Assembly: GCA_009692425.1 (NCBI GenBank)
Contig: SHZF01000034.1
Coordinates: 1 to 47,945, forward strand
Direction: 5' to 3'
DNA length: 47,945 nt
Origin: Myxococcales bacterium
GTDB lineage: Bacteria > Myxococcota_A > UBA9042
Position numbers and translations under genes: made by a program
The notes under the pieces: generated by a model
Told to the model about the DNA's origin: nothing
The model's input: only the letters and a program-made list of their open reading frames with translations
The model's database searches: none
In this document: piece by piece, positions 42,344 through 47,945 of the stretch
Layout: every line of letters begins with the position of its first letter
Position numbering within the stretch: the first letter of the stretch is position 1

Positions 42344-45112
42344 CTAGAGACCCGCGACCTTCTTCAGCCACGCGTAGAACCCGAAGTACGCCGAGTACGT
42401 GCCACTGCCGTCGGCGGCGCCCGCCACGTTGCTCGCACCGGCGGAGACGCGGGCCGCGAACTTCGGCCCCGCGCCCGTCACGACGGCGTTCGAGAAGCGC
42501 ATGTGGAAGCCGGTCGGCGCGCAGCCCTCGTCCGTCGTGCCGTCGCACGTGTTGTCGATGCCGTCGCAGCCCTCTTTCGGGTCGGGCTTGACGTCGCCCG
42601 TGCAGGCGCCGAGCGTGCCCTGGGCGTCGCACTGCTGGGCGCCGCCCTTGCACACGCCCTTGTTCGCGGTCTTGGGGTCGCCGGTGTAGCACGCCACCTT
42701 GATCTTCGTGTCGATCGTGCTCTTGCAACCGGTCGCCAGCGCGCACGTGTCGAGCGTGCACGGGTTGTTGTCGTTGCAGTCCGGGCCCTTGCCGCCGAGG
42801 CACGTGTACTTGTTCAGCTTGACTTCGAGGCCGCACGCGTCGCCCTCCGTGCACGCATTGCCGTCGTCGCACGACTGCTGCACCTCCAAGTACTTGCACT
42901 CGGCAGTCTTCACGTTGCAGTCGTCCTTCGTGCAGGCCTCGCCGTCGTCGCACACCTTCTTCTTGCCGGCCGCGCACGATCCGGTGTCGCACTTGTCGGG
43001 CTGTGTGCACGCGTTGCCGTCCGCGTCGCAGGGGTCGGTGTTGTTCTTGTAGTCGCAGCCCTTCGTCGCGTCGCAGGTGTCGGTCGTGCAGGGATTGCTG
43101 TCGTCGCACTTCAGCAGCGTGCCGACCGTGCAGCCGCCGTCCGCACACTTGTCGTTCTGGGTGCACGCGCTCTTGTCGAAGTCGCACGGCAAGCCGTCGG
43201 GCAGTTTGGCCGCCAGGCACTTGCCCGTGCCCGGCACGCACTGGATCGCCGTGCACGACGTGCTGTCGGCGCACTTTACCACGCTCGCCTGGTCCAGTTC
43301 GCAGTTGTTCTTGATGCACTTCAGCACCCCGTTGCACAGGTTGCCGTCGTCATTGCACTGCGAGTCGTTCGTGCACGCACACGTGTTGGCACCGGCCGTG
43401 CATACGCCGTTCTTGCACGAGTCGCCCGCCGTACACACGTTGCCGTCTTCGCACGCGCCCGAATCGAGCACCGGGTTGACGCACTTCGCGTCGGCCTTGC
43501 ACTTGTCCTGGGTGCACGGATTGTCGTCATTGCACACTTTCGCGATGTCGATGCCCTTGCCCTTGCACGAACCGTCCAGGCACACGTCGTTCTCCGTGCA
43601 CGAGTCGTTGTCCGTGCACGCGCCGCCGATGTTTTGGTACGCGCAGCCGCCCTTGATGTTGTCGCACGAGTCCGACGTGCACGCGTTCTTGTCGTCGCAG
43701 TCCATCTTCGTGCCCGTACACGTCGCAGTCGATGCCGACTCCTTGACGCATTCGTCCTTGATTGAGCACGGCTTGCCGTCGTTGCACGGATCGCCGTCCT
43801 TGGCCTTGTACAAGCACTTGCCGTTGTCTGGGATGCACGAGCTCGCAATGCAGTCGTCGCCCGACTCGCACGCCTTCTTCCCGCCGGCCTTGCACACCCC
43901 GTCCTTGCAGGTGTCCTTGACCGTGCACTCGTTCTGGTCCGCATCACACGGTGCCGCGTTGTCGTCGTCGTAGACGCAGCCCTTCACCTTGTCGCACGAG
44001 TCCTTCGTACACGCGTTCTTGTCGTCGCACACCACGATGGTGCCGGCCGTGCACTTGCCATCCTGGCACTTGTCGTCCTTCGTGCACACTGAGCCGTCGT
44101 TGTCGCAGGGCGCGACCTTGTTCGTGTACTTGCAGCCGGCCTTGGGGTCGCACACGTCATCCGTACACACGTTCTTGTCGTCGCACGTCGCCTCGTCGAT
44201 GGCGCCGTCACAGTCGTCGTCGATGCCGTTGCACGACTCCGTCTTGGGGTCCTCGGCGACGCACGACGTCAAGCCGCCGTTCGACGGCGCACCGGGGTCG
44301 CCGGCTGGCAGACACGTGCGCTTGCCCTGGCACTTGCCGCCGGACGCGTCGGCCTTCGAGCACTTCGTCGAGTACTTCTGCTGCGTCGCGTACTCGCTGC
44401 ACGTGCACTGGCCGCCGGCCTTGACGACGCACTGCTTGCCCTCGGCGCCGGTCACGTCCTTGACGAGCTTGCACTCGTAGCCGGCGAGGCAGTCTTCGTT
44501 CGCCACGCAGGTCACGCCGCAGAACGAGCCGCTGTCGCCACCGTCGATGCACTTCGCATCGGAGTAGCCCGTACTCTGGCACGCTTGGTTCTCCGTGCAC
44601 GGATTGCACAGTTTCGGCGCCTTCGGCACGCAGATGTTCGTCGTGTCGGCGCCCGTGCCGAACGGAACCGGCTTTTCGTCGGACGAGCAGCCCTCGGTCG
44701 CCAGCTTCGCGCAGCGCGGACCCTTGGCCGTGTCGATGCAGGCCAGCGACGGCGTGCACTGCTCGTTCGCTGAGCATGGACACCCGGCTGGTCCGCCGCC
44801 GGACGCGGTGCAGTTGACCTTCGGTGCCGCATCGACGCTGTCCGCGCCAGTGTCACCGCCGGTCGGGGTCTCGGGCGTCGTCGCGCCATCGGCGGTCGGC
44901 GCCGTGTCACCGGCACCCGCATCGGCGCCGGGCGCAGTGTCCAGCGGGGCGGTGTCCTCCCCGGTCGCCACGCCGTCGAGGACTTGCGCCGTGTCCGCGC
45001 CGGCATTGGCCGAAGCGGTGCCCTCGGTCGGCACTTCTTCGGCGCAAGCGGAGGCCACGAGAACGAGCGCAGCCGCCAAAGCCGCGCGCTGCAGGTGCGT
45101 GAACAGGAACAT
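42344..45112 (-). CDS. Cys-rich repeat lipoprotein (CTDC-type repeats)
   Basis: 922 residues from ATG 45112, with GAGAGGG just upstream (a further ATG at 45127 is less likely). The signal ends 'LVASAC' (Cys23). Acidic Ala/Asp/Thr linker to about 110, then a Cys-rich head like that of giant 1 ('CNPCTENQACQSTGYSDAKC'). One MopE-type motif, 'CNGIDDDCDGAIDE', opens a long central array of about 20-residue units with the pattern CxDxNxCTxDxCDxxxGC ('CDDKNACTKDSCDKVKGC', 'CDDSNPCTTDTCDATKGC'). This is reminiscent of Dictyostelium extracellular-matrix CTDC repeats. A final MopE motif ('GCDGIDNTCDGTTDEGC') precedes a Cys-free C-terminal domain of about 60 residues. A surface-exposed, disulfide-rich stalk is likely; the ligand is unknown. 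It follows the P-domain genes on the same strand. Confidence 0.88.
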   Translation of the reverse strand: MFLFTHLQRAALAAALVLVASACAEEVPTEGTASANAGADTAQVLDGVATGEDTAPLDTAPGADAGAGDTAPTADGATTPETPTGGDTGADSVDAAPKVNCTASGGGPAGCPCSANEQCTPSLACIDTAKGPRCAKLATEGCSSDEKPVPFGTGADTTNICVPKAPKLCNPCTENQACQSTGYSDAKCIDGGDSGSFCGVTCVANEDCLAGYECKLVKDVTGAEGKQCVVKAGGQCTCSEYATQQKYSTKCSKADASGGKCQGKRTCLPAGDPGAPSNGGLTSCVAEDPKTESCNGIDDDCDGAIDEATCDDKNVCTDDVCDPKAGCKYTNKVAPCDNDGSVCTKDDKCQDGKCTAGTIVVCDDKNACTKDSCDKVKGCVYDDDNAAPCDADQNECTVKDTCKDGVCKAGGKKACESGDDCIASSCIPDNGKCLYKAKDGDPCNDGKPCSIKDECVKESASTATCTGTKMDCDDKNACTSDSCDNIKGGCAYQNIGGACTDNDSCTENDVCLDGSCKGKGIDIAKVCNDDNPCTQDKCKADAKCVNPVLDSGACEDGNVCTAGDSCKNGVCTAGANTCACTNDSQCNDDGNLCNGVLKCIKNNCELDQASVVKCADSTSCTAIQCVPGTGKCLAAKLPDGLPCDFDKSACTQNDKCADGGCTVGTLLKCDDSNPCTTDTCDATKGCDYKNNTDPCDADGNACTQPDKCDTGSCAAGKKKVCDDGEACTKDDCNVKTAECKYLEVQQSCDDGNACTEGDACGLEVKLNKYTCLGGKGPDCNDNNPCTLDTCALATGCKSTIDTKIKVACYTGDPKTANKGVCKGGAQQCDAQGTLGACTGDVKPDPKEGCDGIDNTCDGTTDEGCAPTGFHMRFSNAVVTGAGPKFAARVSAGASNVAGAADGSGTYSAYFGFYAWLKKVAGL

Positions 45113-45180
45113 GGTGCCCTCTCTCATCGGTATCGAAAGTCTCTCGTCGCTGTGGTCCGGTGCTCGCGCGTTGCGGTCTG

Positions 45181-47157
45181 CTACTTTTCGTAGCCGCCCG
45201 TCGCGATGTCAAGATCGTCGATGAACTGCAGCCCCGCCGGCAGGGCCAGCGAGTTGTTGTGGAATCCGAGCAGCGTCGCCCGCTCGTGGTGGTTGCTCAG
45301 GTACGTATACGGAGCCGTGCTGGTCGTCGTGAAGATGACCGTGCTGACCCGGTTGGCCGGAATGACCAGGCCCACCGAGGTATTGCTCGTGTTGCCAGCG
45401 GTCCAGATGTTGGAGCCGTTGACCGCAACCGAGGCCTGTTCGCTCCAACCGTCGAAGGCCGTGTAGTAGAAATGCGCTGTCCACGTGAGGTTGCCGGCTG
45501 TCAAGTTCCTGACCCGGAAGAGGGCCGCGCACACAAAACCGTTGGTCGAAGAGTGCATGTTGTAGAGTTCCGAGCAGACCAGCGCGTTCTTGCCAGCCCA
45601 GCGCTTCTCGGTGAACAGCGTGCGCTGCACTTCCTTGTCCGCCGAGATCGCGCCCGCATGGGCGTTGCCGTCCGTCCAGACAGATGGACTGATGCCGCCG
45701 TACATCGCGGAGTTGTTGCCCATGAACCAACTGGTTGCCGCATGCTGGTAGGTGTGGAACTGGGCTAGGCGGAACGTTGCCGGCCTGAGCAAATAGTCGC
45801 CGTTCACGGTGAGTGTACCGTTGACCACCAGGTTGCCGGACATCGTGGTGTTGTTGTCAACGTACAGGTCACCGGCTATGCGGATTTTCTTGTTCGATAG
45901 CGTCTGGATGCTGATCGTCCACTTGTTGAGCTGGCCGTCGATGCCGTTGTCCTTGAAGCCGGCGTCGAACACGATCAGCTTCCACTTGCCCTGGGGATTC
46001 TGGCCAAACCACTTCGTCAGATCGCCTGACACGGTCTTGTCGGGGTCGGGGTAGACCTTGATGATCTTGCCGCCCTGGCCGCCGCTGCCATCGCCCTTCC
46101 ACAGTTCAAACTTGCCGCCCTTCGGATCGACCAGCGTCACGGCCACCGTCGAGACGTCCGAGTTGGCGACGTCGATCGCGACCGACAGCTTCTGCGACAC
46201 GCCGATGTCCGGGAAATCGATCTCGTCCGTCACGCCGGTCGGGAAGTTGTCCTTGATCGGGACATTCGTCTTGCCATCGAACGAATCGACGAACTGGTTG
46301 AAGATCAGCTTGTTCGAAATCTCGTCGATGCCGTCCGCCGGGAGCGCGGCCAAGTCCATGTTCGCTACGCAGTCGTACGAGCCGTCGGCCTTGATGCCCT
46401 GCATGACCAGCGCCGTGCCGCATGCCTGGCCGAGCTCGGCAAACTTCGGGATCGCGGTGAGGTCGGGGAACTTGCCGGTCTGCGCGACTGCCGGCAGGTC
46501 CGCGAACTTCTTGTAGGCAGACAGGTCCGGGCCACCGGTCAGGTCCTTGTATTCACCCGTTGTGGCCACCGGCTTGAGGTCGGTCTTCTTCGGATACGCG
46601 CTCAGGTCGGGCGCAGGCGGCGACCCCTTGAGATCCTTGTAGTCGCCCGACATCGCCACCAGGGCGAGCTGGTCGAGCTTGGCGTACTTGGCGAGCAGGT
46701 TCGCGTCGATCTGCTTGTCGCCGATGCAACCGGAGCACTCGAGGGCCTCGGCCACGCTCGCGCGCACCGCGTAGGCCACCGCGTGCAGCGGGCGCCGCGC
46801 CAGTTCGGCGTCCTGCTCGACCTTGAGCGCGAGCCAGCCGCCGCCGAGCGCACCCAGCAGGCCCGGCTCCAGCTTCGTCTTGGAGCCCAGCGCATACGAA
46901 AACACGCCGTTCTTGACGCCGATCGTCACCGGGCCCTCGGTAAAGGCCGGGCTGCCGCCCGTTTCGTCCTTGTAGAGCGAGAACAGGATCGAATACGAGC
47001 CATCCGCGGCCGGCCCGCCGCCCACCGACGTCAGCACGCCCTCGACGAGCGTGGTGGCGGGCACGACGGCTGCGGCGGGAGCGGGCGCAAGGAGTGTCGT
47101 GAACATGGCCACGCCCGTCGCAACCAGAGCGCGCCACCGAAGAGAGATTCGAATCAT
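45181..47157 (-). CDS. P-domain surface protein with fibre-like N-terminal segment
   Basis: 658 residues from ATG 47157. Sec signal to about residue 30 ('TTLLAPAPAAA'). Residues 33-140 are a module seen in secreted fibre or adhesin proteins ('LVEGVLTSVGGGPAADGSYS', 'ELARRPLHAVAYAVRASVAE'). Residues 170-240 carry three [ST]G[DEK][YF]xDL segments ('SGDYKDLKGSP', 'TGEYKDLTGGP', 'TGKFPDLTAIP'), similar to phage tail-fibre spacers. Residues about 305-420 are a proprotein-convertase P domain ('SQKLSVAIDVANSDVSTVAV', 'WKLIVFDAGFKDN', 'NKWTISIQTLSNKKI'). The C-terminal 220 residues are strand-rich and unrecognised. No protease domain is present, so the P domain is probably a structural or binding unit. 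The protein is likely exposed on the surface. Confidence 0.8.
   Translation of the reverse strand: MIRISLRWRALVATGVAMFTTLLAPAPAAAVVPATTLVEGVLTSVGGGPAADGSYSILFSLYKDETGGSPAFTEGPVTIGVKNGVFSYALGSKTKLEPGLLGALGGGWLALKVEQDAELARRPLHAVAYAVRASVAEALECSGCIGDKQIDANLLAKYAKLDQLALVAMSGDYKDLKGSPPAPDLSAYPKKTDLKPVATTGEYKDLTGGPDLSAYKKFADLPAVAQTGKFPDLTAIPKFAELGQACGTALVMQGIKADGSYDCVANMDLAALPADGIDEISNKLIFNQFVDSFDGKTNVPIKDNFPTGVTDEIDFPDIGVSQKLSVAIDVANSDVSTVAVTLVDPKGGKFELWKGDGSGGQGGKIIKVYPDPDKTVSGDLTKWFGQNPQGKWKLIVFDAGFKDNGIDGQLNKWTISIQTLSNKKIRIAGDLYVDNNTTMSGNLVVNGTLTVNGDYLLRPATFRLAQFHTYQHAATSWFMGNNSAMYGGISPSVWTDGNAHAGAISADKEVQRTLFTEKRWAGKNALVCSELYNMHSSTNGFVCAALFRVRNLTAGNLTWTAHFYYTAFDGWSEQASVAVNGSNIWTAGNTSNTSVGLVIPANRVSTVIFTTTSTAPYTYLSNHHERATLLGFHNNSLALPAGLQFIDDLDIATGGYEK
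45865..45977. repeat. 113-bp duplicated module, copy 1 (P-domain end)
   Basis: Aligns without gaps to 47833-47945 with about 13 mismatches by eye. It encodes the end of the P domain through 'NKWTISIQTLSNKKI' and the following 'IAGDL' strand. The second copy reaches the window edge, so the duplication may be longer. Confidence 0.85.
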
Positions 47158-47196
47158 GACTGCATCCTTGCGGAGCCTGCGGACCCGCAGCCTGAG

Positions 47197-47945
47197 CTAG
47201 AACGTGAGCGTGGAGTTTTCGGCCCAGCGGCCGACGAATTCGACCTGCAGGCGGCTGTGCGCGGTGCCGAGGTCCCAATGGTGCCAGCGGTGCGCGTTGC
47301 AGCCGTTCGCATGCGCGTCGATGTAGATCGTGTCGCCCTTGCGCAACGGCCACGTCAGGTCGGCGTACTGGGTCGACCACGCCCCGGCATTGTCGGTGTC
47401 GTTGTTGTGAAAGTAGGCGCGCTGCACGCCGTTCAGTTTCACGCTGAGGTGCTTCGAGCCGCAGCCGTGGGCCATGTTGTAGTGGTTGATGCGGTAGAAC
47501 CCGGCGATCTTGATCGTGATCACGCCGTCGCTCGGGCTGATGTCGAAGTAGTCCTGCGCCGTGTTGAAGTCCGTGCCGTCCAGGCAATAGCGCGCCCACC
47601 CGTCTTGGCCCGCCGGATGGTACTTGCAGCCGCCCGAGAACATCGGCTTGCGCGGCAAGGCAGCCACCCACACGTACACGGCGACGCCCTTGTTGTCGTA
47701 CTGCAGGTCGCACGTCTGCAGGCCCCAGGTCGGCTCGAAGCGCAGCGTGCCGACCTTGTCCTTCGCGCACGCCGTGGCGTCCATGTTCACCTTGAGGCCG
47801 CCCGAGCCGGTGCTCAACTGGCCCGACACGATCAGGTCGCCCGCGATCGCGATCTTCTTGTTCGACAGCGTCTGGATGCTGATCGTCCACTTGTTGATCT
47901 GCCCGTCGTTGGCGTTGTCCTTGAAGCCGGTGTCGAACACGATCA
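47197..47945 (-). CDS. Second P-domain surface protein, 5' part missing
   Basis: The last 249 codons of a gene that begins outside the window; the GTG at 47940 is internal, since 'IVFDTGFKDN' continues the P-domain motif seen in the neighbour. After the shared P-domain end come a short linker and a C-terminal domain of about 200 residues that differs from the neighbour's. It includes 'AKDKVGTLRFEPTWGLQTCD', paired cysteines ('SGGCKYHPAGQDGWARYC') and a strand-rich, His/Asn-rich end ('HHWDLGTAHSRLQVEFVGRW') resembling C1q/TNF-like or other jelly-roll binding domains; this is tentative. The gap to the next gene is 39 bp on the same strand, so both are probably in one operon. Confidence 0.75.
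   Translation of the reverse strand, partial: IVFDTGFKDNANDGQINKWTISIQTLSNKKIAIAGDLIVSGQLSTGSGGLKVNMDATACAKDKVGTLRFEPTWGLQTCDLQYDNKGVAVYVWVAALPRKPMFSGGCKYHPAGQDGWARYCLDGTDFNTAQDYFDISPSDGVITIKIAGFYRINHYNMAHGCGSKHLSVKLNGVQRAYFHNNDTDNAGAWSTQYADLTWPLRKGDTIYIDAHANGCNAHRWHHWDLGTAHSRLQVEFVGRWAENSTLTF
47833..47945. repeat. 113-bp duplicated module, copy 2 (P-domain end)
   Basis: The partner of 45865-45977, about 88% identical by eye with no gaps. It is cut by the window end. Confidence 0.85.

Follow-up and report, generated by a model that had tools for sequence, protein, structure and literature searches.

The closest described counterparts of the genes studied here are the mosaic adhesive trimer (MAT) fibres of Bdellovibrio bacteriovorus. 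In the passages of the paper that describe them, a conserved domain of ~130 aa follows the signal peptide, trimeric stalks carry unrelated tips, including TNF/C1q-like and C-type lectin folds, and many members are present per genome (Caulton et al. 2024, PMC10769870). The authors of that study speculated that independent folding of the tips 'may aid tip swapping', and the passages of the paper on this subject contain no sequence data on how such swapping happens (PMC10769870). A constant N-terminal part with an exchangeable C-terminal part is also known from polymorphic toxins and phage tail fibres. These systems are similar to the present family in that an invariant part, used for delivery or docking, is joined to ends that change. 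However, the Pfam-matched tips of the present family are lectin- or receptor-like and not toxins, and it is the conserved part, not the end, that appears to be homogenised within genomes. A further likeness is to the Bab/Hom outer-membrane adhesins of Helicobacter, which are paralogous surface proteins reported to undergo gene conversion and concerted evolution. The Bab/Hom adhesins comprise few paralogues, not dozens, and we know of no exchange of unrelated fold families among them.

The family described here is similar to the MAT fibres, as these are portrayed in the passages mentioned, in having a leader, a conserved domain right after it, a stalk, unrelated C-terminal tips and many members per genome. 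It differs in that a P domain ends the base (the MAT paper, PMC10769870, never uses the term 'P-domain'), in that the tips, apart from those of the gene pair with which we begin, are mostly fibrinogen-like, with no S74 domain among the families listed as matches of 57 tips (Pfam, E <= 0.01), and in that bases of one genome are alike at the DNA level in several pairs. The N domain matched the NCBIfam model NF053851 (Bdello_MAT_N, cut-off 60 bits) weakly, with 14 of 53 bases at E <= 1 and a best value of 2.3e-4. In the genome of origin 12 matches to NF053851 were obtained at E <= 10, all below the cut-off and all at places of the fibre family. As this match is weak, we say that the family would work like MAT fibres, by analogy, and leave membership aside. 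P-domain bases, the scale of the family and the contrast between base and tip are what is new here with respect to MAT fibres, and the titles and abstracts of the open-access journal papers searched contained no account of this family. With moderate confidence we read the sequences as an exported fibre repertoire in which the base would be docked and kept alike by gene conversion, while the tips would be independent and re-paired with bases over time.

Results

Two neighbouring genes with a shared P-domain end

The window, i.e. the whole stretch of DNA that was analysed (47,945 nt), carries two neighbouring fibre-like genes at its end, both on the minus strand and in the same direction. C61a (45181-47157) is a complete fibre-like gene of 658 aa. 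It consists of a signal-peptide-like leader ending in ...APAPAAAVVPAT (47065-47157, assigned by eye), an N domain of about residues 25-165 (46663-47085), which in whole or in part is common to most of 47 family frames, DLTGxPDLSxYAK-type repeats with a CGxGLVxxG neck (46204-46662), a P domain (45910-46191; PF01483, protein score 28.3 bits against a cut-off of 21) and a predicted beta-sandwich tip (45184-45858; AlphaFold2 mean pLDDT 90.2). The second gene, C61b (47197-47943), lacks its 5' part because contig C61, and with it the window, ends there; its base is therefore short, being present for ~39 codons. A profile and an AlphaFold2 model suggest a C1q/TNF-like fold for its tip (47200-47826). 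All of these features are encoded on the minus strand.

The end of the P domain of C61a (45860-45977) and the corresponding stretch of C61b (47828-47945), both on the minus strand, are 87% identical over 118 nt without gaps. In blastn the same stretch gave 113 nt at 88% identity with an E-value of 1.4e-35, which excludes chance and makes it a case of real homology. The two sequences part after ...SNKKI-x-IAGDL, just past the P domain, and are unrelated from there on, the tips having different predicted folds. The earlier note had described near-identical DNA at the end of the P domain followed by complete divergence, and this description was confirmed. The same note had taken the high identity as a sign of recent duplication or gene conversion. 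Within the shared stretch, the same codon was used at 25 of 31 degenerate codons for identical residues, where 20.5 were expected (P = 0.045). The excess of DNA identity over protein identity and codon bias is thus marginal in this pair, most of the DNA identity following from protein identity and the codon bias of a GC-rich genome, and the word 'recent' therefore rests on other pairs, described below, in which the codon excess is strong.

The tips might also have been joined to the wrong bases at repeats during short-read metagenome assembly. Contigs do break inside family genes; C61 ends inside a P domain, and two further contig ends of the genome of origin, C60:1-149 and C8:20882-21030 (loci L027 and L025), have 149 nt in common that fall within a fibre base. 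Elsewhere in the assembly, the 5' parts that the genes on C60 and C8 lack were not found. Such misjoining is nevertheless highly improbable in our view, given that a single contig carries the ends of both C61a and C61b next to each other, that discordant pairs from different genera share too little to be misjoined (bases 44-60% identical, at the protein level) and that orthologous loci agree between independent assemblies.

Size, distribution and architecture of the family

The genome of origin (G000) is an assembly of 4.94 Mb in 137 contigs and is 96% complete. A search of this genome for further P-domain genes with the same module, proposed in the earlier note, yielded 16 places over the Pfam cut-off for PF01483, which together with C61b make 17 P-domain genes. 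With the base of C61a as query, 64 matches were obtained, located in 47 open frames of the fetched stretches, of which 17 contain a P domain and 30 do not. At E <= 1e-30 the base was found in 27 of the 52 genomes of the class that were searched, i.e. in 21 of 22 genomes of the same family but in 6 of the 30 genomes from elsewhere in the class, and one relative (G004) showed 55 base matches at E <= 1e-20. A contig search with one protein as query returned no relatives; with an alignment as query, relatives were recovered. The named relatives are all metagenome assemblies, labelled Myxococcales, Deltaproteobacteria or Proteobacteria (including Loc090721-8m bin-517). According to their record names several are derived from lakes and one from groundwater, and the family is mostly freshwater.

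An alignment of the 17 P-domain proteins of the genome of origin, 3 of which are without their 5' part, showed a leader ending near AAA-VP and an N domain with an LDCSGC motif, followed by DLTGxPDLSxYAK repeats, neck, P domain, the border SNKK(I/V)xxxG and the tip. A hydrophobic leader with an A-x-A-type end was recognised by eye in the 14 P-domain genes having a complete 5' end. Every complete member combines a leader with a conserved N domain, a stalk of repeats, a P domain and a tip. The repeats of the base resemble those of tail fibres. C61a and C61b belong to a large repertoire of exported, probably surface-displayed fibre proteins. That these proteins are fibre-shaped, form trimers, are displayed at the surface, bind prey or glycans and dock through the N domain is inferred from the sequences.

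One fibre gene of G004 (contig C25, L152) is split by one TGA within the P domain and might be a pseudogene or an assembly error.

Tip families

The tips of 57 genes (17 of the genome of origin and 40 of G004) were compared with Pfam at E <= 0.01. COLFI was matched by 28 tips, Fibrinogen_C by 27 and DUF4215 by 20; the ALK/LTK glycine-rich domain and C1q were rarer, with 2 tips each, and FGE-sulfatase, CBM26, GON and Xlink were matched by 1 tip each. By similarity the 57 tips fell into nine groups, the largest with 37 members; C61a belongs to a group of 10 and C61b to a group of 2. The C61b tip scored 17.8 bits against Pfam C1q (PF00386), below the cut-off of 23.7. A profile of 13 tips of the C61b type matched solved C1q domains in the PDB, the best being C1q-related factor (E 2.7e-5), and the AlphaFold2 model of the C61b tip (pLDDT 83) matched C1QL3 (E 6.6e-9, TM by target length 0.81). 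By profile and model, the predicted fold of the C61b tip is that of C1q/TNF. The well-predicted beta-sandwich of C61a gave middling sandwich matches with Foldseek and VIA-align 2, none of them a confident solved relative. The assignments set aside were the RetS sensor domain as the best (VIA Z 8.1), the PA14 and GH2 sandwich domains with lower values, and CBM35 in Foldseek.

Two other tips of the same genome may be mentioned. That of C99 (L030:3263-4471) showed a strong match to the ALK/LTK glycine-rich domain (PF12810, E 2.1e-26), a domain familiar from animal receptors. That of C48m (L020:4633-5193) was without a Pfam match, and its sequence may resemble sponge short-chain collagen C4-like domains. 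Diversification by a diversity-generating retroelement was rejected, as no match to the reverse transcriptase family PF00078 was found in the 96% complete assembly.

Alike bases with unlike tips

The comparison set comprised 136 genes; 83 of these were added from six species belonging to a single genus, for which 81 of the 85 places listed were fetched. Genes were sampled by similarity to the C61a base, and the pairs are statistically non-independent. Bases were at least 75% identical in 38 gene pairs. In 21 of these the tips were unrelated, aligned over less than 80% of their length or less than 50% identical, and all 21 pairs lie within one genome. The remaining 17 pairs have alike tips, and 2 of them lie within one genome. 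In the genome of origin the closest base pair, C60a/C8, shares 783 nt at 94.6% identity up to the same border as the window pair and then diverges; over 258 codons its bases are 94.7% identical at the nucleotide level, and its tips are unrelated. A pair of a relative shares 1206 nt at 90.4% up to the border, and the closest base pair of G004, C117/C125 (89.8% over 400 codons), likewise has unrelated tips. Codons were alike at 219 of 238 positions in C60a/C8, where 139.2 were expected, and at 287 of 358 in C117/C125, where 196.5 were expected. Identity at the protein level alone in other copies, which the earlier note had named as evidence against its reading, was thus not what these copies showed.

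The opposite comparison gave a different distribution. Tips were at least 65% identical over at least 80% of their length in 70 pairs, 33 of which have bases at least 12 points lower, all 33 between genomes. Three of the 70 pairs lie within one genome and none of these is discordant, i.e. no within-genome pair with alike tips (>=65%) on clearly less alike bases was found in this set. For one gene of the genome of origin (C38), four genomes from a different genus contain tips that are 68-71% identical to its own, on bases that are 44-48% identical to its base; flanking proteins gave no clear support for synteny between C38 and these relatives. Like tips also occur on bases without a P domain (54% identity over 338 aa and 56% over 321 aa). 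As this discordance shows, bases and tips have been exchanged as modules.

Whole genes might simply have duplicated within lineages, their tips diverging beyond recognition under selection and without recombination. Some tandem pairs are indeed alike in both modules, such as the C28 pair of G004 (base 87%, tip 71%), and conversion patches inside bases were not found (see below). However, tips without detectable similarity on bases that are 90-95% alike would be hard to obtain by divergence alone, as would orthologous tips between genera on unlike bases, and we regard this course of events as improbable.

Own-genome clustering of bases

The nearest base was found in the same genome for 69 of 136 genes, where 20.7 were expected by chance, and the nearest tip for 14 of 110, where 15.6 were expected. 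Among the same 110 genes, 36 had their nearest base in their own genome and their nearest tip elsewhere, and 1 showed the reverse (exact P 5.5e-10, the genes not being independent). Nearest bases thus lie in their own genome far more often than nearest tips, which points to a base homogenised within genomes. The effect is unevenly distributed: G004 alone supplies 26 of the genes with their nearest base in their own genome, and the effect is absent in G014 (1/11), G017 (0/13) and G021 (0/10). At several columns codon choice was alike among paralogues and specific to the lineage. One Ala column has GCG in G000 and G004 and GCC in six genomes of one genus, and one Ser column has AGC or TCG depending on the lineage.

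The two closest species pairs contain 15 reciprocal best pairs of tips. All 15 were also the best base match in the other genome, and in 14 the base was nearer to its orthologue than to any sampled paralogue of its own genome. The other genome pairs contain 77 tip pairs; in 60 of these at least one of the two bases was nearer to a paralogue of its own genome, and in 44 both were. Where loci match between close species, a base keeps its tip and the two diverge jointly, indicating that exchange is slow.

The module exchange proposed in the earlier note is supported in that a constant base occurs on unrelated tips in many genes and the modules have been exchanged. Its further suggestion, that the tip had been replaced on a constant base, did not prove to be the better reading, as all 21 discordant pairs with alike bases lie within one genome. 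According to that suggestion, duplication of a gene would be followed by exchange of its tip, the join lying where the P domain ends. The sharp border after the P domain would agree with this, as would tandem genes with alike bases and unlike tips, e.g. C5_142/C5_2210 of G004 (base 93%, tip 25% over 102 aa), and the like tips on bases without a P domain. Recently copied tips on different bases would then be expected within genomes, but 0 of the 3 within-genome pairs among the 70 were discordant, and the joint divergence of base and tip in close species also argues against it. We therefore consider tip swapping unlikely, and homogenisation of the base within each genome fits the sequences better than recent tip replacement. 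Against conversion of the base it can be held that lineage-specific duplication of bases followed by later capture of tips would leave a similar pattern, that patches inside the base are absent, and that three genomes are without the own-genome effect.

Border and tract analysis

The tract of similar DNA ended 4-53 nt past the P domain in 17 of the 21 discordant pairs and 119-393 nt past it in the other four. In 12 concordant control pairs (10 between species and 2 within G004) it ran on through the tip. Upstream of the C117/C125 tract similarity is lost (local score 18, as against a mean of 20 and a maximum of 28 for shuffled sequences), and this 5' edge was considered as a recombination edge. 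It was rejected as not diagnostic, since in most orthologous controls, too, the similarity of the DNA begins close to the mature N terminus. A recombination site at the border was likewise rejected; the Ser of the TLS motif showed the strongest codon conservation of 159 columns, but most nearby columns were unremarkable.

Conversion tracts inside the bases, for which the earlier note had advised looking, did not exceed chance. In a longest-run test on synonymous codons, 55 of 900 within-genome pairs reached p <= 0.05, 11 reached p <= 0.01 and none reached p <= 0.001, and short conversion tracts are therefore not claimed. The simplest reading of the tracts would be recombination over the whole homologous block, stopping where homology ends.

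Proposed mechanism

For the fibre repertoire with homogenised bases the following course of events is proposed. The base would dock on a cell-surface component of the species, and recombination between paralogues, presumably as gene conversion, would keep the bases alike. Conversion would end just after the P domain because homology ends there, and the tips would escape homogenisation because they share no homology. They could then diverge as recognition modules in their own right, directed at glycans, prey or partner cells, and over longer times bases and tips would be re-paired. C61a and C61b would be one tandem instance of this repertoire. A more specific version is put forward tentatively, its chances falling, in our judgement, slightly short of even: genomes would hold recognition repertoires of as many as about 55 fibre genes each, in which a P-domain base bears a head of the C1q, fibrinogen-like or ALK/LTK type, ectopic gene conversion would fit the bases to one lineage-specific docking partner, the tips would remain independent and be re-paired, and the base, not the tip, would be overwritten.

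If this is true, the 'tip swapping' guess for MAT fibres would become a measured process with its direction reversed, the base being the part that is overwritten. Since many related genomes each carry dozens of these genes, the family lends itself to measuring how base and tip are exchanged, and to dating and polarising that exchange. Should the bases be homogenised lineage by lineage, their docking partner should co-vary with them, which would open a route to that partner. The tips further provide bacterial domains of the C1q, fibrinogen and ALK/LTK types, and the family shows how a repertoire of recognition fibres may evolve.

Variable loci and neighbouring genes

At four loci (L294 in G007 C182, L308 in G010 C12, L321 in G014 C12 and L341 in G019 C193) one flank matched between more distant species while the number of fibre genes and their tips differed. 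These loci are possibly hot spots of turnover.

Directly downstream of C61a, on the minus strand of the window (42344-45127), lies a gene for a protein of 927 aa whose leader, judged by eye, is lipoprotein-like and which contains cysteine-rich repeats of the Dicty_CTDC type (PF00526, E 3.8e-17). Genes with such repeats were considered as a fixed partner or anchor of the fibres and rejected, since in a motif scan they adjoined only 6 of the 47 family frames, many of the 47 having short flanks. The genome contains at least 150 Dicty_CTDC repeat matches (150 of 1621 candidates were scored), distributed over many long frames.
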